From Terriglobia bacterium (GTDB lineage: Bacteria; Acidobacteriota; Terriglobia; Acidiferrales; UBA7541): a stretch of DNA of 64,000 nucleotides. Every line of letters starts with the position of its first letter. Position 1 is the first letter of the stretch. The stretch spans positions 1-64,000 of the forward strand of contig JAIQGC010000006.1 in assembly GCA_020072805.1 (NCBI GenBank), written 5' to 3'. A program made the translations under genes and the position numbers. Shown in pieces: positions 31,108 through 45,597 of the stretch. The notes below the pieces were generated by a model. The model saw nothing but the letters and a program-made list of their open reading frames with translations, ran no database searches and had not been told where the DNA came from.

Positions 31108-32487
31108 ATGCACGACGCACTGAAGAATGAAATCAGCACCTACGAAAAGCGCACGCCGAAATCGGCGGCATCGCACACGCGGGCGCTGAAGAGGATTCCG
31201 CTGGGAGTGGCCAGCAACTACCGGGCCTATGATCCATATCCGCTGTTCGTGAAGGAAGCGCAGGGAAGCAAGATCCGGGACATTGACGGCAACGAGTACG
31301 TGGACCACAACCTATGCTTCGGGACGCTGATGGCGGGGCATTCGCATCCGGAAGTGGTAAAGGCGGTGGAGGCGCAGCTGCACCATGGCACGGCCTACGG
31401 CATGCCGCACGACATGGAATGGGAACTGGCCGAGGAGATCTGCGGGCGGTATCCGGTGGAGATGGTGCGCTTCGGCTCGAGCGGGACGGAAGCGACGATG
31501 CACGCATGCCGAATTGCGCGGGCGGCGGCCGGGCGGGACAAGATTATCAAGTTCGAAGGCTCCTACCACGGACTGCACGACACGGCGCTGATCAGCGTGA
31601 AGCCCAAGCCAGAAGAGTACGGCGACGCGGATGCGCCGAATTCGGTTCCGGGCGGGCTGGGAGTGCCCCAGGCCAGCGTGGCCAACGTGGTGATAGCCAG
31701 CTTCAATAACCTGAAGAGCGTGGAGCGGCGGTTCAAGGGAAATCCGGGGCAGATTGCCGCGGTTATTCTGGAGCCGATCCTGATGAACGTTGGGCTGTGC
31801 ATGCCGCAGCCGGGGTTCCTGGAAGGACTGCGCAAGCTGTGTACGGAAAACGGAGCGCTGCTGATCTTCGACGAAGTGAAAACGGGAGCGAAACTGGGCT
31901 GGGGCGGAGCGAGCGAAGCCTACAACGTGAAGCCGGACATTACCTGCCTGGCGAAATCCATCGGCGGAGGATTCCCGCTGGCGGCGTTTGGAACAAGCCG
32001 GAAGGTGATGGACCTGATCTCCGACCACAAGGTATTTCACGGCGGGACGTACAACACGAATCCGATTTCGATGGCGGCGGGGCTGGCGACGTTCCGCTCG
32101 GTGCTCACGCGCGAGAATTATGCGCACGTGGCCAAGCTGAGCAAGAAGCTGGCGGAAGGATACCGCAAGACGATCGCGAAGGTGGGCTTGAAGGCGTACG
32201 TGGCCAGCGCGGGTGCGAACGGGGCACTGATGCTGTACCCCAAGGAAATCCAGAACTATCGCGACTGGACGCTGGTGGACATTGACCTGTGGAGACAGTA
32301 CTGGTTCGGGATGGTCAACCGGGGGGTGCTGGCGCAGCCCTACTGGTGGGACGAGCAGTGGACGATTTCCGTGCAGCACACGGAAGCGGACATTGACAAG
32401 CACCTCGCGGCGTTCGAGGACGTGGCTCCGGGGCTGGCGAAGGCGCAGCAGGAGCGCGGGCCGGTGACGGTCGCGGCGGGACACTAA
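31108..32487 (+). CDS. Class-III PLP aminotransferase, glutamate-1-semialdehyde-aminomutase-like
   Basis: This 459-aa fold-type-I PLP enzyme has the Schiff-base lysine K283 in CLAKSIGGGFPLAAFGT, a phosphate-binding SSGTEATMHACR segment near residue 130, and FDEVKTGAKLGWGG with the cofactor-binding Asp. It resembles HemL-like aminotransferases, but the context (no haem genes; next to an amine permease and a dehydrogenase) favours a catabolic omega-aminotransferase that turns a terminal amine into an aldehyde. ATG 31108 follows AGGGAGC. The permease gene is 29 nt downstream. Confidence 0.88.
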   Translation: MHDALKNEISTYEKRTPKSAASHTRALKRIPLGVASNYRAYDPYPLFVKEAQGSKIRDIDGNEYVDHNLCFGTLMAGHSHPEVVKAVEAQLHHGTAYGMPHDMEWELAEEICGRYPVEMVRFGSSGTEATMHACRIARAAAGRDKIIKFEGSYHGLHDTALISVKPKPEEYGDADAPNSVPGGLGVPQASVANVVIASFNNLKSVERRFKGNPGQIAAVILEPILMNVGLCMPQPGFLEGLRKLCTENGALLIFDEVKTGAKLGWGGASEAYNVKPDITCLAKSIGGGFPLAAFGTSRKVMDLISDHKVFHGGTYNTNPISMAAGLATFRSVLTRENYAHVAKLSKKLAEGYRKTIAKVGLKAYVASAGANGALMLYPKEIQNYRDWTLVDIDLWRQYWFGMVNRGVLAQPYWWDEQWTISVQHTEADIDKHLAAFEDVAPGLAKAQQERGPVTVAAGH

Positions 32488-32516
32488 GGTAAATCGACAG
32501 CAACGGGAGAGCGGAC

Positions 32517-33941
32517 TTGGCAAACGAGGTCCTGACGGAACAGGCGGGGGAGCAGGAGCAGCCCCATCTCAAGCGAGTATTAGGCCGTTGGGACCTTGTG
32601 CTGCTATTTGTCGTCGCGGTTTTCAACCTCAACGTGGTGCCCAGCATCGCGGCCAACGGAGGAGTGACCGTCTGGCTGTGGGTGGTGGCGCTGATCCTCT
32701 TTTTCGTGCCGCAGGGAATCGCGGTGATCGAACTCTCCCATCGCTATCCGGGCGAAGGGGGAGTTTACCTGTGGGCGAAAAAGGAATTTGGAGATTTTCA
32801 CGGGTTTCTTTCCGGGTGGTGCTACTGGACGAATAACATGATGTACGTGCCCACGGTGATGCTGTATTTCGTGGGCGTTTCGGTGTTCGTGCTGGGGCCC
32901 AGCCATGCGCAACTGGCGGACAACCGCATGTTTGCGCTGGGAGCCTCGGTGGTGCTGCTGGGGTTGCTGGTGGTGCTGAACGTGGTTGGTCTGGGCGTGG
33001 GCAAGTGGGTGAATAATGCCGGGGCGGTGGGGACGGGAATTGCCGCGGCGATACTGATTGGCCTGGGGCTGCTAGTGTGGATGCGCTTTGGGACGACGGT
33101 AACGGCGAACGATTTTCGAATTCCGGCGAATCCGCGGTTTCTCATTAATTCGTTTGGGGTAATCTGCTTCGGGCTGGTGGGGCTGGAACTGGCTTCGGTG
33201 ATGGGCGACGAGATCCAGGATCCGCGGAAGACATTGCCGGGAGCGGTGGCCTGGGGCGGGCTGCTTTCCGGAGCGCTCTATATAGGAGCGACGCTGACGC
33301 TGCTGACGGGCGTGAAGCAGAGCGACATCAGCGTGCTGCAGGGAATCGTGCAGGCCGTGGAGCATATGGCGGCGCGGGTGGGCGGCGGATGGATTGTGGC
33401 GCCGTTCGCGCTGATGCTGAGTATTTCGATTGCGGGAATCGGCTCGGCGTGGCTGGGCGGTTCGGCGCGCATTCCATTCGTGGCGGGCCTCGATTCCTAC
33501 ATGCCGTCGTGGCTGGGCAAGGTGCATCCGAAATATGGCACGCCCTATGCGGCGTTGATTGTGCACGCGGTGATATCCCTGATCCTGGTGATTGTGAATT
33601 TCACGGTGACGGATTCCGGGGTGCAGGAGACATTTCAGAAGCTGCTTTCGCTGGCGGTGGTGCTGCAACTGATTCCGTTTATCTATCTGTTCGCGGCGCT
33701 GCTGAAGATCGCGCGGGATAAGACGAGGGAGGCGGGATATTACCAGCCGTGGGTGCTTTATGCCGCGGGCGGCAGCGGGCTGCTGACGACGATATTGGGG
33801 ATCCTCGTGGTGTTTTCGCCGGCGGCGCAGATCAAGTCGATCCTGTCCTATGAAATTTGGATGGTGGGAGGAACCGCTGGATTTATCGGTTTGGCGGCGT
33901 TTTTCTTTTTTGTGTACGGCGGGCGGAAAGCGGCGCGGTAA
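32517..33941 (+). CDS. APC-family amino-acid/polyamine permease
   Basis: This 474-aa protein with about 12 TM helices begins with an APC-type first helix (LGRWDLVLLFVVAVFNLNVVPSIAANG). The segment LSHRYPGEGGVYLWAKKEFG is the usual loop of amino-acid/polyamine antiporters and symporters. The start is a TTG at 32517 with GGAGAG about 6 nt upstream; the next in-frame ATG is too far inside. It should import or exchange an amine or amino acid, complementing the ABC transporter encoded on the other strand. It sits 29 nt after the aminotransferase and 37 nt before the dehydrogenase, in one operon. Confidence 0.9.
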   Translation: MANEVLTEQAGEQEQPHLKRVLGRWDLVLLFVVAVFNLNVVPSIAANGGVTVWLWVVALILFFVPQGIAVIELSHRYPGEGGVYLWAKKEFGDFHGFLSGWCYWTNNMMYVPTVMLYFVGVSVFVLGPSHAQLADNRMFALGASVVLLGLLVVLNVVGLGVGKWVNNAGAVGTGIAAAILIGLGLLVWMRFGTTVTANDFRIPANPRFLINSFGVICFGLVGLELASVMGDEIQDPRKTLPGAVAWGGLLSGALYIGATLTLLTGVKQSDISVLQGIVQAVEHMAARVGGGWIVAPFALMLSISIAGIGSAWLGGSARIPFVAGLDSYMPSWLGKVHPKYGTPYAALIVHAVISLILVIVNFTVTDSGVQETFQKLLSLAVVLQLIPFIYLFAALLKIARDKTREAGYYQPWVLYAAGGSGLLTTILGILVVFSPAAQIKSILSYEIWMVGGTAGFIGLAAFFFFVYGGRKAAR

Positions 33942-33978
33942 GCGCGCTTGAGGATTCAAGAGAAGCGTGGAGGGGACA

Positions 33979-35460
33979 ATGTCCAGCACGGCAAAACAGA
34001 GCGTTCGCAGCTACCAAAACTACATCAACGGGAAGTTCGTGAGCAGCGCGACGGGCGAGACCTTCGCGGTCTATGACCCTTCCACGGAAGAAGTGATCGC
34101 GCAGGTGGCGGCGGGCGGCGCGGCGGATGTGGACAGCGCGGTGAAGGCGGCGCGCGCGGCTTTTGATACCGGCGACTGGGGAAAGACCTCGGCGCAGGAC
34201 CGCGGACGGATTCTCTTTAAGCTGGCGGAAAAAATTCGTGCCAACGCAGCCATGCTGTCCGAGCTGGAATGCCGCAACACGGGCAAGCCGCTGGTGGAGG
34301 CGGAATACGACATCGCCGACGCGGCGACCTGTTTTGAATACTACGGCGGGCTGGCCAACAAGGTGATGGGGCAGACGATGCCGGTGCCGGCCAACGGCCT
34401 AAGCTTCACGCTGAAGGAGCCGATGGGCGTGGCCGGGCAGATAATTCCGTGGAACTATCCGCTGGTGATGGCGGCGTGGAAGCTGGGGCCGGCGATCGCG
34501 GCGGGCTGCACAATCGTGCTGAAGCCCGCGGAGCAGACGCCCTGCACCATGATGGAAGCGGCACGGTGGTTCGAGGAAGCCGGGCTGCCGCCGGGAGTGG
34601 TGAACATCGTGAACGGGATGGGCGAGACGGCGGGAGCGGCGCTGGTGGCCCACCCCGGCGTGGACAAGATTGCCTTCACGGGCAGCGCGGCGGTGGGCAA
34701 GATCATCGTGAAGAGCGCGGCGGACACGCTGAAGCGGGTGACGCTGGAGCTGGGCGGAAAATCGCCGAACATTTTCTTCGCGGAAGCGGACTGGGAAGCG
34801 GCGGTGGACGGCGCGCTGTTCGGCGTGTTCATCAACCAGGGGGAAGTGTGCTCGGCGGGGAGCCGCATCCTGGTGGAGAAGAAGATCTATTCAAAATTTG
34901 TCGAGGCCATGACGGAGAAGGCCAAAAAGATCAAGCTGGGGCCGCCGATGGACCGGGAAACGAAGATGGGGCCGCTGGTCAGCCGGGAACAGTACGACCG
35001 GGTGACGTCCTATCTCGAACTGGGGAAGAAGGAAGCGCGGGTGGCCAGCGGAGGCGGGCGGCCCAAGGAGTTTGCCAAGGGGTATTACGTGCAGCCGACG
35101 ATTTTCTGCGACGTGAACAATAACGCGCGGATCGCCCGCGAGGAAATTTTCGGGCCGGTGGCCACGGTGATTCCGTTCGAAAACGAAGCGGAGGCCATCC
35201 GCATCGCCAACGATACGCCGTACGGGCTGGCGGCGGCGGTGTGGACGCGGGACATTTTCAAGGCGTTTCGCGTGGTTAAGGCGGTGCGCGCGGGGATCGT
35301 GTGGATCAACCACATGCAGCCGACGTACGTGGAAGCGCCCTGGGGCGGCTACAAGCAGTCGGGATTCGGGCGCGAGCTGGGGCCGTGGGGGCTGGAAGAA
35401 TATCTCGAAACCAAGCAGGTGTTCGTGAACCTGGACGAGACACCGATCGGGTGGTACTGA
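33979..35460 (+). CDS. Aldehyde dehydrogenase, betaine/amino-aldehyde type
   Basis: This 493-aa NAD(P)-dependent aldehyde dehydrogenase has the catalytic Cys291 in INQGEVCSAGSR, the general base Glu257 in LELGGKSPN, and the cofactor Asn in IPWNYPLVMAAWK. The sequence style (MQPTYVEAPWGGYKQSGFGR) is closest to betaine-aldehyde and gamma-aminobutyraldehyde dehydrogenases (BetB, PuuC, PatD types). It would oxidise the aldehyde formed by deamination of an amine to an amino acid such as GABA. ATG 33979 has GGAGGGG upstream; the GTG at 33967 overlaps that site. The stop overlaps the next start by one base. Confidence 0.92.
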   Translation: MSSTAKQSVRSYQNYINGKFVSSATGETFAVYDPSTEEVIAQVAAGGAADVDSAVKAARAAFDTGDWGKTSAQDRGRILFKLAEKIRANAAMLSELECRNTGKPLVEAEYDIADAATCFEYYGGLANKVMGQTMPVPANGLSFTLKEPMGVAGQIIPWNYPLVMAAWKLGPAIAAGCTIVLKPAEQTPCTMMEAARWFEEAGLPPGVVNIVNGMGETAGAALVAHPGVDKIAFTGSAAVGKIIVKSAADTLKRVTLELGGKSPNIFFAEADWEAAVDGALFGVFINQGEVCSAGSRILVEKKIYSKFVEAMTEKAKKIKLGPPMDRETKMGPLVSREQYDRVTSYLELGKKEARVASGGGRPKEFAKGYYVQPTIFCDVNNNARIAREEIFGPVATVIPFENEAEAIRIANDTPYGLAAAVWTRDIFKAFRVVKAVRAGIVWINHMQPTYVEAPWGGYKQSGFGRELGPWGLEEYLETKQVFVNLDETPIGWY

Positions 35461-36821
35461 TGAGCACAATACAGATTCGCACGGCAATTCCCGGGCCCAA
35501 GTCGAAGGCTCTGATGGAGCGGCGCGTGGCGGCGGTTCCGCGCGGACCGTTTCATGCGCTTCCGGTGTTCGCGGCGTCCGCGGAGGGCGCGGTCATCGAG
35601 GACGTGGACGGCAACCGCTTTCTGGATTTCGCCGGCGGGATCGGCTGCCTGAACATGGGCCACCGCGCGCCGGGAGTGCTGGCGGCGGTGCGCAGCCAGA
35701 TGGAGAAGTTTCTGCACGTGTGCTTCAGCATGACGCCGTATGAAAGCTATATCGCGGTGGCGGAAAAGCTGAACGCGCTGGCGCCGGGAAAGTTCGCGAA
35801 GAAGACATTTTTGGCGAACAGCGGAGCGGAAGCGGTGGAGAACGCCATCAAGATCGCGCGGGCGTACACCAAACGGCCGGCGGTGATCGCGTTCGAAGAC
35901 GCGTTTCACGGGCGGACATACATGTCCATGGCGCTGACCAGCAAGACGCATCCGTACAAGGCGGGGTTCGAGCCGTTTCCGGGGGAGATTTATCGCATAC
36001 CGTACGCGTATTGCTACCGGTGTTCGTACGGGATGAAGTATCCCTCGTGCGGAACGGCCTGCGCGAGCCAGCTGGAAAACGCCTTCAAGAAGGTGGTGGC
36101 GGCGGAAACGGTGGCCGCGGTGATTGCCGAGCCGGTGCTGGGAGAAGGCGGATTCGTGGCGCCGCCGCGGGAATTTTTCACGATGATTCAGGAGATCTGC
36201 CGGAAGAACGGCATTCTGTTCATCGCCGATGAGGTGCAGAGCGGCATCGGGCGCACGGGAAAAACTTTTGCGATCGAACATTACGGGGTCGAGCCGGACA
36301 TCATCACCACGGCCAAGTCGCTGGGCGGAGGGCTGCCGCTGGCGGCGGTGACCGGGCGCGCGGAGGTGATGGACGCGCCGGGACTGGGCGGGATTGGCGG
36401 AACATTCGGAGGGAATCCGGCGGCGTGCGCGGCGGCGCTGGCGACGCTGGAGATCCTGGAGAAGGAAGGATTGCTGGCGCGCTCGACGGCAATCGGCAAG
36501 AGGTTCGAGGAGCGCGCGCGGGGATGGCAGAAGAAGTGGGCGCTGGTGGGGGATGTGCGCGGACTGGGAGCCATGTGCGCGATTGAGCTGGTGCGCGACG
36601 CGGAAACGCGCGAGCCGGGCGAGGCGGAGATGAAGGAAGTGGCGCAATACTGCACGGAGCACGGCGTAATCACGATCACGGCGGGAACGTTTGGAAATGT
36701 GCTGCGAATACTGGTGCCGCTGGTGGTCACGGACGCGCAGTTGGATGAAGGCTTGGATGTAATCGAGCAGGCGCTGGCGGGCGTGGCGGAGCGTTCGCGC
36801 ACCGCGCTTTCGCACGCCTAG
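35460..36821 (+). CDS. gabT: 4-aminobutyrate-type aminotransferase
   Basis: This 453-aa class-III PLP aminotransferase has the catalytic K286 in TTAKSLGGGLPLAAVTGR, NSGAEAVENAIKIAR for phosphate binding and IADEVQSGIGRTG with the PLP Asp. The pattern matches GabT/PuuE, which converts GABA plus 2-oxoglutarate to succinic semialdehyde plus glutamate. The start overlaps the dehydrogenase stop (TGATG), so the two are translated together: aldehyde to omega-amino acid, then transamination. No succinic-semialdehyde dehydrogenase gene is adjacent. It ends the receptor-led operon. Confidence 0.9.
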   Translation: MSTIQIRTAIPGPKSKALMERRVAAVPRGPFHALPVFAASAEGAVIEDVDGNRFLDFAGGIGCLNMGHRAPGVLAAVRSQMEKFLHVCFSMTPYESYIAVAEKLNALAPGKFAKKTFLANSGAEAVENAIKIARAYTKRPAVIAFEDAFHGRTYMSMALTSKTHPYKAGFEPFPGEIYRIPYAYCYRCSYGMKYPSCGTACASQLENAFKKVVAAETVAAVIAEPVLGEGGFVAPPREFFTMIQEICRKNGILFIADEVQSGIGRTGKTFAIEHYGVEPDIITTAKSLGGGLPLAAVTGRAEVMDAPGLGGIGGTFGGNPAACAAALATLEILEKEGLLARSTAIGKRFEERARGWQKKWALVGDVRGLGAMCAIELVRDAETREPGEAEMKEVAQYCTEHGVITITAGTFGNVLRILVPLVVTDAQLDEGLDVIEQALAGVAERSRTALSHA

Positions 36822-38762: not shown

Positions 38763-40093
38763 ATGACCGACTACAAGAAATGCAGTTTCTGGCTGGACAC
38801 GCTCGGCGAAGAACTTGCCCCGCGTCCGGCTCTGCAGCGTTCCGCGGAAGTGGACGTGGCTGTCCTGGGAGCCGGCTTTTCCGGCTTGTGGACCGCCTAC
38901 TACCTGCTGCGCGATAACCCCGGGCTGCGCGTGGCCGTGGTGGAAAAGGAAATCGCCGGCTACGGTGCTTCGGTGCGTAACGGCGGATGGTGTTCGTCGA
39001 AGTTTCCGGTGACCCCGGTGGAACTCGAGCGCCGCTACGGGCGCGACGCCGCGCGGGCGCTGATGCTGGCGATGTACGACACGGTGGACGAAGTAGCCCG
39101 CGTGTGTGAAGCCGAGCGCATTGACGCGCAGTTTCAGATGGGCGGGCCGGCTACGAACGCCTGGGGCTGGGCGACCGCCACGTGCTGCTCAGCGCCGCCG
39201 AGGCCGCCGAGCGCGTCCGCGTGACCAACGTGCAGGGCGCGCTCTTCGCCGCGCACAATGGCAGCGTGAATCCCGGCCGCCTCGTCCGCGGCCTGGCCCG
39301 CGCCGTCGAGCGCCGCGGCGGCGTCATCTACGAGCAGACCGAAGTGACGCAGTTCGCCGGGGGTGCTGCGCCGCGGCTGGTCACGCCGGGCGGCGAACTC
39401 CGCGCGAAAAAAGCCCTCGTTCTGGCGGGGGAAGCCTATCTCTCCCGCCTGCCCGCACTGCACCGCGCGATTCTGCCCATGTACTCGCTCATCGCCGTCA
39501 CCGAGCCGCTTTCCTCCGCGCAGTGGGCGCAAATCGGCTGGGAGCGCCGCGAAAGCCTGGCCTCCTTCCGCCACACGGTGGACTACCTGACGCGCACCGC
39601 CGACGGCCGCATCCTTTTCGGCAGCCGCGGCGCGCCCTATCTTTTCGGCTCGAAGATCACCGACGAGCAGGACCGCCACGCCGCCACGCACGGAAAAATT
39701 CATCAGTACGTCGCCGAATGGTTTCCCGCGCTCCGGGATGTGAAATTCACGCACGCCTGGGGCGGCCCGGTGGGCATGCCGCGCGACTGGATGCCCATGG
39801 CCTCCTTCGACGCCTCTTCGCGCATCGGCACCGCGCGCGGCTATACCGGCCAGGGAGTTTCCACCACGAATCTGCTGGGAAGGGTTCTTGCGGAATTAAT
39901 TTCCGGAAAGCGCACGGGCCTCGATACGCTGCCCGTGGCGCAACGCCATTCGCCCAACTGGGAGCCGGAACCGCTGCGCTGGATGGCCGTGCGCTACGCC
40001 CAGAACACGTTTCTGCGCATGGATGAAGCCGAGGAAAGCGGCCGGAGCCGGCCGTGGCATTCTTTTATCGCGGACCAGATCGGCAAGCACTGA
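38763..40093 (+). pseudogene. Gamma-glutamylputrescine-oxidase-like FAD enzyme, interrupted by a frame change
   Basis: The first part (38763 to about 39146) has the FAD-binding Rossmann motif VAVLGAGFSGLWTAYYL, then ASVRNGGWCSSKFP, typical of DadA/PuuB-like amine oxidases. After FQMGG the frame fails; YERLGLGDRH resumes in another frame at about 39149 and runs cleanly to the stop at 40093 (VNPGRLVRGLARAVERRGG, SRGAPYLFGS, GGPVGMPRDWMPM, GYTGQGVSTTN). About 20-25 residues normally present at the junction seem missing. Intact relatives oxidise N-substituted amines to an aldehyde and ammonia or amine. It is downstream of the MarR gene. It may be a decayed gene or an assembly deletion. Confidence 0.82.
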
Positions 40094-41920: not shown

Positions 41921-42568
41921 TTGCACGACGACCTTTTCCGCGCCATGCGCGATTCCATTGTGGATGGTGACCCCGAAGTAGCCGCGCGGTTGAGCCGCGA
42001 TTCCATCGCGCTGGGCGTCCCGCCGCTGGAGGCTATCAACCGCGGCTTCGTCGCGGGGCTGACGCACGTGGGCGAGCAATTTGCCGCGGGAGAATTTTTT
42101 CTGCCCGATCTGGTCCTGGCCGGGGAAGCCATGAAAGCCGCGGTGGCCATTCTCGAACCGGAGATGAAGAAGTCCGGCGCGCAGCGCGAAGTGCTGGGCA
42201 CGGTCGTGCTCGGCACGGTCCAGGGCGACATTCACGAAATTGGCAAGACTCTGGTGGGCACCATGCTCACCGCCAGCGGCTTCGCGGTTCACGACCTCGG
42301 CGTGAATGTTCCTTTCGAAACGTTTGCCGCCAAAGCCCGCGAACTCGGCGCGGACATCGTCGGCGTCTCCGCCCTGCTCACCACCACCATGACCGGGCAG
42401 AAGGACGTTGCCGAGGCTCTCGAGCGCCACGGCCTCCGCCCGCGCGTCAAGCTGATCCTTGGAGGCGCGCCCGTGACGCACGACTGGGCCCGGGAAATCG
42501 GCGCCGACGGCTACGGAGAAGACGCCCTGGCCGCGCTCTCCCTGGCAAGAACGTTGCTCGGGAAGTAG
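41921..42568 (+). CDS. Corrinoid (cobalamin-binding) methyl-carrier protein, MtgC/MttC-like
   Basis: In this 215-aa protein the N-terminal ~85 residues are a helical cap (LFRAMRDSIVDGDPEVAARL). The rest is a B12-binding Rossmann domain with the base-off motif GDIHEIGK, giving the cobalt-ligating His105, then VGVSALLTTTM and LILGGAPVTHDWA. Length and layout match the methyl carriers of one-carbon methyltransferase systems. The start is TTG 41921 with GGAGGG 4 nt upstream; the frame extends far back antisense to the ABC-F gene, which is spurious. The MttB-family gene starts 13 nt after it. Confidence 0.9.
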   Translation: MHDDLFRAMRDSIVDGDPEVAARLSRDSIALGVPPLEAINRGFVAGLTHVGEQFAAGEFFLPDLVLAGEAMKAAVAILEPEMKKSGAQREVLGTVVLGTVQGDIHEIGKTLVGTMLTASGFAVHDLGVNVPFETFAAKARELGADIVGVSALLTTTMTGQKDVAEALERHGLRPRVKLILGGAPVTHDWAREIGADGYGEDALAALSLARTLLGK

Positions 42569-42581
42569 CCGGAGCCTGACC

Positions 42582-44030
42582 ATGCAGCCCAAGCTGGAAC
42601 TGCTCGACGGAGAACTGCTCGAAAAAATTCTGGGCGAAGCGTATACGCTGCTTGCCGAGCCGGGCATTCGCGTGCAGGCAGCGGACGCCGTCGAACTGCT
42701 GTCCGCCGCCGGCGCGCGCATCGAAAACGGCGTGGCGCGCATCCCCGAAGCGCTGGTGCGCCGCGCTCTCTCCTCCGCGCCGCGCGAATTCTTTCTGCAT
42801 AATCGCGCCGGGGAGCCCGCCGTCCGTTACGGCGGCGATGCCGTGCATTTCGATCCCGGCTCTTCCTGCGTCCACATTCTCGACCCGCAAACCATGCAGC
42901 ACCGCATGACCCGCACCGCGGACCTCGAACGCCTGGTGCAGGTGGCCGAAATGCTTCCGCAATACACCGCGCAGTCCACCGCCGTCGTCTGCAATGACGC
43001 GCCGCAGGAGATTGGCGACCTCTGGCGGCTGCATGTGGTCCTGCGGCATTCGGGCAAGCCGGTGGTGACCGGCGCATTTTCCGCTCACACCGCTCCGGCC
43101 ATGATCGACCTGCTGGCCGCGGACTGCGGTGGCCGCGCCGCGCTGAAAGCCAGGCCGCGCGCCATCTTCGATGTCTGCCCCTCTCCTCCTCTCAACTGGT
43201 CCGATTTCGCCGCGCAGAATCTGGTGGACCTGGCCCGCGCGGGAGTTCCCGCTGAAATTATTTCCGTGCCCATGGCCGGGGCCACCGCTCCGGTGACGCT
43301 CGCGGGCGCCGTCGTGCAGCATGCCGCCGAATGCCTCGCCGGCATCGTCATTCACCAGCTGGCCCAGCCCGGCGCTCCCGTCGTCTGGGGCGGCGCGCCG
43401 GCCATTTTCGATATGCGCACGGGAATTACGCCCATGGGAGCCATTGAAACGGCCATGCTCAATGCCGCCTGCTCGCAAATCGGCAAACATTTCGGCTTGC
43501 CCACCCACGGCTATCTCGGCGGCAGCGACGCGAAAATTCTCGACGCACAGGCCGGAATGGAAACTTCCTCCGCCGTCCTGCTCGGCGCGCTCGCCGGCAT
43601 CAACATGATTTCCGGCGCGGGCATGCTCGATTCGCTGGCCTGCCACAGCGCGGAAAAGCTGGCGCTGGACGCCGAAGCGATTGCCGCGGCGCAGCGCGTT
43701 CTCCAAGGCATCAGCCCGCGCGGCGATTCCCTGGCTACGGCCATGTTCGCGCAGGCCGGCTTCGCCGGTGAATTTTTAAAACTGCCCGAAACCCGCCGTC
43801 TTTTCCGCACGGAACAGCATCTTCCTTCGCACCTGATCGATCGTGGCACGCTGCATTCCTGGGAGCAGGGCGGTTCACAGGACCTCTTCGCCCGCGCGCG
43901 CGCTCGCGTGAACGAACTCGTCGCCGCCTACAAACGCCCCGAGCTGCCTAAACAAATCGAAAGCGAATGGAAAGCCATCCTTCAGGAGCAGGCGCGGCGC
44001 GCGGGCAGTCAGCAGGCGGCAGGCCTGTGA
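42582..44030 (+). CDS. MttB-superfamily methyltransferase lacking pyrrolysine
   Basis: This 482-aa protein of the trimethylamine-methyltransferase (MttB, COG5598) superfamily has matching segments GSSCVHILDPQT, WSDFAAQNLVDLARAG, IISVPMAGATAPVTLAGAVV and GYLGGSDAKILDAQAG. The frame is continuous with no in-frame amber stop, so it is a non-pyrrolysine member like MtgB, MtpB and MtcB, which demethylate quaternary amines (glycine betaine, proline betaine, carnitine). It should transfer a methyl group from an unknown N-methylated substrate to the corrinoid protein encoded 13 nt upstream. Confidence 0.92.
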   Translation: MQPKLELLDGELLEKILGEAYTLLAEPGIRVQAADAVELLSAAGARIENGVARIPEALVRRALSSAPREFFLHNRAGEPAVRYGGDAVHFDPGSSCVHILDPQTMQHRMTRTADLERLVQVAEMLPQYTAQSTAVVCNDAPQEIGDLWRLHVVLRHSGKPVVTGAFSAHTAPAMIDLLAADCGGRAALKARPRAIFDVCPSPPLNWSDFAAQNLVDLARAGVPAEIISVPMAGATAPVTLAGAVVQHAAECLAGIVIHQLAQPGAPVVWGGAPAIFDMRTGITPMGAIETAMLNAACSQIGKHFGLPTHGYLGGSDAKILDAQAGMETSSAVLLGALAGINMISGAGMLDSLACHSAEKLALDAEAIAAAQRVLQGISPRGDSLATAMFAQAGFAGEFLKLPETRRLFRTEQHLPSHLIDRGTLHSWEQGGSQDLFARARARVNELVAAYKRPELPKQIESEWKAILQEQARRAGSQQAAGL

Positions 44031-44049
44031 GTTTCAGGATGACGATGCG

Positions 44050-44737
44050 ATGAAGCGAGAACTTGATGCGCCGGATTTCGGGCGGGAGCTAAGCGGTCTG
44101 CTGATCGAAGTGGACGTGGACCAGGTCCTGCGCGCGCAGGGCGCCGACCCCGGAAAACTCCGCGCGCGCCAGCCCCGCGCCGTGGATCTAGCGGAGCGCG
44201 CCTTGCGGGAAGGGATGCAGGTTCTCGCGCCGCGCGTCCTCTGCCGCTCGTTCACCGTGCAGTCCGTCCTGCATGTCTGCCAGCCCCTACGCTGACTACA
44301 CAGAGATGCTAGGTCGTGAACAGCTGGACCTGGTGATCGTGGCCACGCTCGGCGAAAAACTGGATGCGCTTATCGCCGCCATGCAGACTCGCGACATCTC
44401 CCTGGCCCTGGCGCTCGACGGCTTCGGCACCGCCGCCATCGAAGCCCTCTCCATGTCCATCTGCCGGCATTTCGGGGAAGTGGCCGAGCGCGAATCGCTG
44501 CACAGCTCTCTGCCGTTCAGCCCGGGCATGGCCGGATGGGACCTGCAAACGGGCCAGCGGGGAATCTTCGGCCTGCTCGACGCCGCTTCCATCGGCCTGC
44601 GCCTCAGCCCGTCCTTTCTGATGATTCCGCAAAAATCTCTTTCGCTGGTCATCGGCATCGGCAGGGAAGTGCGCGAAGGCGGCTCGCTTTGCGAATTCTG
44701 CAATTTGCGGGAAACTTGCCGTCACAGAAGTTTGTAA
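44050..44737 (+). pseudogene. MetH reactivation-domain-like protein, interrupted by a frame change
   Basis: The first part (44050 to about 44285), with IEVDVDQVLRAQG and LAPRVLCRSFTV, is the N-terminal half of a stand-alone relative of the MetH activation domain (Met_synt_B12 family), which holds SAM for reductive reactivation of B12 enzymes. The second half continues in another frame from about 44300: LDLVIVATLGEKLDALIAAM, LDGFGTAAIEAL, FSPGMAGWDLQTGQRGIFGL and a CEFCNLRETCRHR cysteine tail. A few codons appear lost at the junction. Its place right after the methyltransferase points to reactivation of the corrinoid protein. Its 3' end overlaps the convergent homocysteine methyltransferase gene by 16 nt. 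Confidence 0.78.
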
Positions 44738-45597
44738 ACGCCACTCGCGGCCATGGCCCGGATGAAGTCCGGACTCGTCCCGCAGCATCCTCCGATGAAT
44801 ACCGCTCCCGCCGCGGCCATCTCGCGCGCATCCGCGGCAAACTCCTCCGGCGTGGTGCGGTAAATCGCTTTGCCGCCAATCATCTCCGGCATTCCCGCGT
44901 TGGGCTTGATCCACACCGGCAGCGTTGTCGCCGCGCACAGCCGCCGGCAGATCGCGATGTAGCCGCGGATCCCGCTGCCGCAGTTCGCTCCGATGGCCTG
45001 CACGCCGGCGGAAACAAGCGCTTCGGCGGCTTGCTCGGGCGTCGTGCCCATGATGGTGCGGTCGCGGTTTTTTCCTGAATCGAAGACCATCGAGACGATC
45101 ACGGGCAGGCCGGCCGCGAGCGCCGCCTCCGCCGCGATGCGCGCCTCGGTCAAATCCGTCAGCGTCTCCAGCAGAAGGGCGTCGGGGCCTTCCTCGGCCA
45201 GCGCGCGCGCCTGCGCGGCAAAGGCGTCCTTCATCTGCTGCTCGGTAATCTCCTTGGTCACCAGCATTTTTCCCGTCGGCCCTATCGAAGCGAAAACCAG
45301 CGCGCGCGTTCCCGCCGCCTCGCGCGAGATGCGCACTCCGGCGCGGTTGATGGCCGCGGTCTGCTCCGCAAGGCCGTTGAGAGCCAGGCTCACGGGATTG
45401 GCGCGGAACGTGTTCGTCAGGATTACGCGGCTGCCCGCCTGCACATAGGATTCGGCGACTTCGCGCACGCGTTCCGGGTGCGCAAGATTCCACCCGTCCG
45501 GATCGGCGCCCGGCGGCAGCCCGCGCTTCTGCAGTTCCGTTCCCCACGCGCCGTCGGCGAGCAGGGGCGCTTGCTTGATCCAATCGTTCCAGGGCAT
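44722..45597 (-). CDS. Homocysteine S-methyltransferase (MetH N-terminal-type)
   Basis: This 291-aa TIM-barrel enzyme uses zinc held by three cysteines: GANCGSG and GGCCGTS supply them. The opening DGAWGTELQKRGLPPGADPD and VILTNTFRANP are characteristic of the homocysteine-binding module of MetH, MmuM and BHMT-type enzymes. It would pass a methyl group to homocysteine to give methionine. It is on the strand opposite to the corrinoid genes but converges tightly with them, so it could be the acceptor arm of the cassette. ATG 45597 is preferred over the longer frame. Confidence 0.88.
   Translation of the reverse strand: MPWNDWIKQAPLLADGAWGTELQKRGLPPGADPDGWNLAHPERVREVAESYVQAGSRVILTNTFRANPVSLALNGLAEQTAAINRAGVRISREAAGTRALVFASIGPTGKMLVTKEITEQQMKDAFAAQARALAEEGPDALLLETLTDLTEARIAAEAALAAGLPVIVSMVFDSGKNRDRTIMGTTPEQAAEALVSAGVQAIGANCGSGIRGYIAICRRLCAATTLPVWIKPNAGMPEMIGGKAIYRTTPEEFAADAREMAAAGAVFIGGCCGTSPDFIRAMAASGVYKLL

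Follow-up and report, generated by a model that had tools for sequence, protein, structure and literature searches.

A block of genes from a Terriglobia bacterium probably codes for a relay that carries methyl groups from an amine, by way of an MttB-family methyltransferase, a corrinoid protein, and a homocysteine methyltransferase (HMT), to homocysteine, with no need of a folate module. The window analyzed was a 64,000-nucleotide stretch, contig C48 of a 3.98-Mb draft genome (G000; 157 contigs, 99.8% complete), and genome-wide statements on G000 are based on family and protein searches. We propose that the MttB-family enzyme would demethylate a quaternary amine, putatively of the betaine type, and load the methyl group onto Co(I) of the corrinoid protein, and that HMT would pass it on to homocysteine, yielding methionine and leaving the demethylated amine behind. 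Inactive Co(II) would be re-reduced by the activase-like protein and, in two sibling species, also by RamA. Such a relay would dispense with a folate module and, since MetH is intact in G000, would be an auxiliary route beside it.

This amine-to-homocysteine mechanism had been put forward in a preliminary description of the sequence. It is largely supported by gene content, linkage, ancestry, selection, and a search of sibling genomes that found no stand-alone folate:corrinoid methyltransferase; the direction of transfer, the substrate class, and the activity are what we infer. Homocysteine is the likely acceptor because of the family context of HMT and because no other acceptor was found, and the donor is assigned to the quaternary-amine class by MttB homology.

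Organization of the Gene Block

The four genes claimed to lie within 3.7 kb were found at the positions given in the preliminary description (Table 1), and Pfam assigned domains to the three intact proteins. The genes for the corrinoid protein, the MttB-family enzyme, and the activase-like protein are transcribed in the same direction with short gaps between them, and the HMT gene overlaps the 3′ end of the activase-like gene, tail to tail. No Rfam families were detected near the block, and promoter and terminator scans there gave no more than expected by chance. The dN/dS values against the near siblings G007 and G009 were 0.12–0.18 for the corrinoid protein, MttB, and HMT, which are thus under purifying selection.

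TABLE 1. Genes of the methyltransferase block and their positions in the window.
Feature	Position	Strand	Remarks
Corrinoid (B12-binding) methyl carrier, 215 aa	41921..42568	+	TTG start; PF02607 and PF02310; His105 is the candidate lower ligand
MttB-family methyltransferase, 482 aa, non-pyrrolysine	42582..44030	+	PF06253, 303.7 bits
Activase-like gene, N-terminal part, frameshifted	44050..44295	+	Aligns with the N-terminus of intact 238–255 aa sibling proteins
Activase-like gene, C-terminal part, other frame	about 44306..44737	+	Aligns with the C-terminus of the sibling proteins; C-terminal Cys cluster
Zinc-type homocysteine methyltransferase (HMT), 291 aa	44722..45597	-	PF02574, 230 bits; convergent with the operon

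G000 contained a single PF06253 gene and also heme-copper oxidases, the latter in agreement with the previous view of the host as likely aerobic. An intact MetH of 1218 aa was encoded elsewhere in the genome, so that describing the block as a methionine synthase split into separate genes is misleading for G000. A protein of 609 aa was also found, with a homocysteine-methyltransferase N-terminus and a C-terminus that is MTHFR by reading of the sequence.

Two other regions of the window were recorded. At 38763-40093, 3 kb from the broken activase gene, a gene for an FAD-dependent (DAO) oxidoreductase is split over two frames, through either assembly error or decay. Upstream, at 31108-36821, lies a cluster resembling amine catabolism, with aminotransferases, a permease, an aldehyde dehydrogenase, and a GABA-transaminase-like gene. 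A similar pair of aldehyde dehydrogenase and GABA-transaminase-like genes occurs near the block in the sibling genome G035 (L099:17646-19999), and based on the recurrence of this pair, the amine used by the block may be of the butyrobetaine/GABA kind.

The MttB-Family Enzyme and the Corrinoid Protein

The window MttB carries Gly314 at the position that aligns with pyrrolysine in Methanosarcina MttB, and its frame is open, with no in-frame amber or other stop codon. A pyrrolysine-dependent MttB was therefore rejected, as had been anticipated. Matches of the family in the PDB include solved MtgB-type structures. Among 80 named MttB relatives, those of Terriglobia consist of a corrinoid-mttB pair with no HMT nearby, and some of Chloroflexota belong to larger clusters with mtgD, four of which also carry a distant (25–30%) HMT. 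In the Terriglobia relatives L023, L034, L035, L038, L042, and L048, the pair adjoins divergent etfB-etfA-etfQO genes, which suggests electron transfer linked to demethylation. Plasmid records contained distant MttB relatives only (<60% identity). Three records titled Patescibacteria or Collierbacteria (L066, L073, and L087) code for proteins 56–57% identical to the window MttB, due to either mis-binning or transfer.

The corrinoid protein contains a DIHEIGK motif that includes His105. Its best NCBIfam match was an MtgC model, at 222 bits and below the cut-off of 310; the curated MtgC models likewise scored below cut-off, and the protein lay just above the cut-off of TIGR02370. Phylogenetic analysis placed the five proteins of the genus in a single clade (100/97), which falls within MttB-partnered corrinoid proteins of Terriglobia and Chloroflexota and apart from the HMT-partnered ones.

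HMT and Its Orthologs

HMT contains the zinc-type cysteines C206, C271, and C272, as judged by motif, and aligns with the homocysteine domains of MetH. Orthologs of 51–65% identity were common outside the genus (399 genomes of the class), and at most of the loci examined there a corrinoid protein gene and a RamA gene were near. The donor partner in these operons is a folate enzyme or a UroD-type methyltransferase. In the second type the order corrinoid - HMT - DUF1638 - UroD-type methyltransferase - RamA recurs, as established by full reading of L241:6234-10976 and L249:8818-13531, and by similarity at L239, L244, L246, and L250. This operon was found across one Acidobacteriota family that also possesses full MetH. 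At L142, L235, and L270, and partly at L242, MTHFR-like and MtgD-like genes adjoin the HMT, RamA, and corrinoid genes. Full-length MetH was not found in the genome of L142, which is 96% complete, or in that of L235 (95%), so at these two loci HMT probably serves as the homocysteine module of a methionine synthase divided among separate proteins. HMT stands alone at L140 and L248. In the HMT tree the six sequences of the genus form one clade (100/100) within a mostly corrinoid-linked group. Based on the prevalence of corrinoid-RamA operons among its orthologs, the most likely activity of the window HMT is that of a corrinoid:homocysteine methyltransferase. An HMT of 41–43% identity was also seen in another member of Acidobacteriota (L145:1-9907; G075, contig C124), after a RamA-type activase (PF14574) and CO dehydrogenase/acetyl-CoA synthase-like genes, the latter assigned by eye only.

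Linkage and Origin of the Block

The gene mttB was present in five (G000, G007, G009, G034, and G035) of the 36 genomes sampled from the genus, and in all five HMT lies beside it. The HMT orthologs of the four siblings are 69–81% identical to that of the window, lie at the corresponding end of the block, and are oriented as in the window relative to the other genes. The only further genome of the genus with an HMT ortholog was G019, where it adjoins a fragment of a corrinoid gene of the same type, with no mttB; this arrangement looks like a decay relic. Finding all five mttB genomes within the six HMT genomes has a hypergeometric p = 1.6e-5 (calculated by hand), a value that is indicative only, the species being related. 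Of greater weight is the finding that the genes flanking the block differ between the window, G007/G009, and G034/G035, and the block itself is kept together. Co-occurrence across genomes, which had been suggested as a check, was thus borne out within the genus. The preliminary description had also held that HMT always unlinked to MttB would speak against it: within the genus every mttB has HMT beside it, and this objection applies in part outside it, where most relatives of either gene are unlinked to the other. Since the corrinoid protein groups in the trees with MttB-partnered proteins and HMT with proteins of another operon type, the block is a hybrid, formed when an MttB-corrinoid pair and the HMT of another type of corrinoid operon came together.

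Search for a Folate Acceptor

A search with PF00809 detected two genes each in G007, G009, G034, G035, and G019, namely MetH and one scoring best as FolP-like, and no stand-alone folate:corrinoid methyltransferase of the MtgD type in these genomes. This result is in line with the earlier proposal of methionine formation without a folate module. G000 held one extra match, an MtgD-like stretch at the end of a contig (C115:28494-29195). This stretch meets an aminotransferase gene on C115, and each of the two breaks off at the point where they join (L105:13185-14417); the aminotransferase is cut to about 203 aa, and its frame runs to 389–443 aa in siblings. Because a gene that is full-length in siblings and the MtgD-like gene are cut at one point, we infer that this contig end is chimeric, and the MtgD-like stretch was rejected as a reliable part of G000.

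Reactivation of the Corrinoid Protein

The frameshift in the activase-like gene lies between about 44277 and 44306, and intact copies are present in four sibling genomes. The name "MetH-activation-like" given to this protein is weakly supported: an activase profile matched MetH activation domains weakly, at the level of a motif (41.7% probability), and the C-terminal piece scored 17.3 bits against PF02965, which is below its cut-off of 25; the intact copies had no Pfam match. Structure prediction for the family reached a pLDDT of 39. The broken pieces showed dN/dS values of 0.28–0.53 against G007/G009. Searches of G000, G007, and G009 detected no RamA (PF14574) gene, yet the activase-like gene is intact in the latter two; G034 and G035 have an additional RamA/RACo-type corrinoid activase inside the block (PF14574, PF17651, and Fer2). 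With the activase gene broken and RamA not found, activity of the relay in the window strain is doubtful, and the relay may be impaired there. Reactivation in this strain could be accounted for only by an assembly error behind the frameshift or by help from MetH in trans.

Comparison With Known Systems

A homocysteine acceptor coupled to an MttB enzyme in an aerobe had been thought new. It is not, since the aerobe Ruegeria pomeroyi DSS-3 has MtgBCDE, in which a betaine enzyme of the MttB type, a folate enzyme, and a homocysteine module work through one corrinoid carrier, and the MtgBCDE genes are also co-localized in Sinorhizobium meliloti (PMC12478193, PNAS 2025). The folate enzyme MtgD is essential in that system, and its mutants need methionine (PMC12478193). 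The window block resembles it in belonging to an aerobe and in comprising a PF06253 enzyme without pyrrolysine, a stand-alone corrinoid protein, and a PF02574 homocysteine module. It differs in the lack of a reliable MtgD, in the convergent and adjacent HMT, in the intact MetH of the genome, and in a corrinoid protein that falls outside the cut-off of the MtgC model. The RamA-type reactivase of MtgBCDE was not found in G000, G007, and G009, whereas G034 and G035 carry it within the block. What is new is the variant, apparently without a folate module, in Acidobacteriota; the general principle was already known.

Phaeobacter inhibens has a three-part methionine synthase with RamA and DUF1638 as helpers (PMC5764234). 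Here too the homocysteine and corrinoid modules are separate, and RamA-like and DUF1638 helpers accompany relatives of the window HMT; however, MttB takes the place of the pterin module at the window locus and RamA was not found in G000. With no pterin module at the locus and an intact MetH in the genome, the block is not a split MetH of the Phaeobacter type. MtgABC of the anaerobe Desulfitobacterium hafniense, which likewise combines a non-pyrrolysine MttB-family enzyme and a corrinoid protein, transfers the methyl group to tetrahydrofolate and lacks the homocysteine module present in the window block (described in PMC12478193). BHMT shares the PF02574 fold, and the net reaction would be equal if the donor were glycine betaine, but BHMT is one enzyme without corrinoid, whereas the donor and acceptor enzymes of the window are separate. 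The core methionine synthases MesA-D are folate-independent, distant relatives of MetE that use a corrinoid-borne methyl group (PMC7857596); the window block would also form methionine from such a group without folate binding, with an HMT of the MetH/PF02574 type. Related UroD-corrinoid-RamA clusters were reported in a 2023 preprint on MtaA-like clusters, which does not mention Acidobacteria (PMC10418091). No description of the folate-module-free variant or of acidobacterial corrinoid-HMT-UroD operons was found in a search of largely open-access literature.

Alternative Explanations

Several observations count against the relay: HMT is on the opposite strand and not in the same transcript as the operon, most of its orthologs and most MttB relatives elsewhere are unlinked to each other, HMT is alone at L140 and L248, the activase gene is broken and RamA was not found in G000, the genomes of the genus share ancestry so that co-occurrence is not independent, and the presence of MetH makes the block dispensable for methionine as such. 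HMT could accordingly be an independent enzyme, using for example S-methylmethionine or betaine directly, that merely neighbors or hitchhikes with the corrinoid-MttB operon, as its convergent orientation, the stand-alone orthologs, and the restriction of the linkage to one genus would allow. We regard this as distinctly improbable, in view of the intact block among changing flanks, the G019 relic retaining exactly corrinoid gene and HMT, and the mostly corrinoid-linked HMT family. It is quite unlikely that the block is a catabolic demethylase of the MtgBCD type, in which a folate enzyme encoded at another locus would pass the methyl groups from the MttB enzyme and corrinoid protein on to tetrahydrofolate and HMT would only draw on the same carrier. 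That arrangement is the published model of the closest known system, in Ruegeria (PMC12478193), and mtgD occurs near MttB relatives in Chloroflexota; but the five sibling genomes searched have no MtgD-type gene, and the MtgD-like copy on C115, the one candidate in the window assembly, is truncated, joined to a truncated aminotransferase, and looks chimeric.

The proposed relay might also be ancestral, its genes left over and now inactive in this strain. The frameshifted activase, the failure to find RamA in G000, and the fragments retained in G019 fit such a decay, which we nevertheless consider unlikely: the genes for the corrinoid protein, MttB, and HMT are unbroken and show low dN/dS, an assembly error could explain the frameshift given the number of contigs in the draft and the second split gene, the activation domain of MetH itself could help in trans, and G007 and G009 also lack RamA while keeping the activase-like gene intact.

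Biological Significance

On a wider scale, it is an evenly balanced proposition that corrinoid-homocysteine methyltransferase cores of Acidobacteriota have swapped their donor enzyme several times (folate enzyme, UroD-type, or MttB) and that the window genus holds the folate-module-free version, forming methionine directly from a quaternary amine. If this is true, corrinoid-homocysteine cores would accept exchangeable donor enzymes, and the UroD-type operons of the class would become testable as methionine-forming systems. The block would then be a B12-dependent counterpart of BHMT, and aerobic soil bacteria could draw the methyl groups of methionine from methylated osmolytes, bypassing folate.
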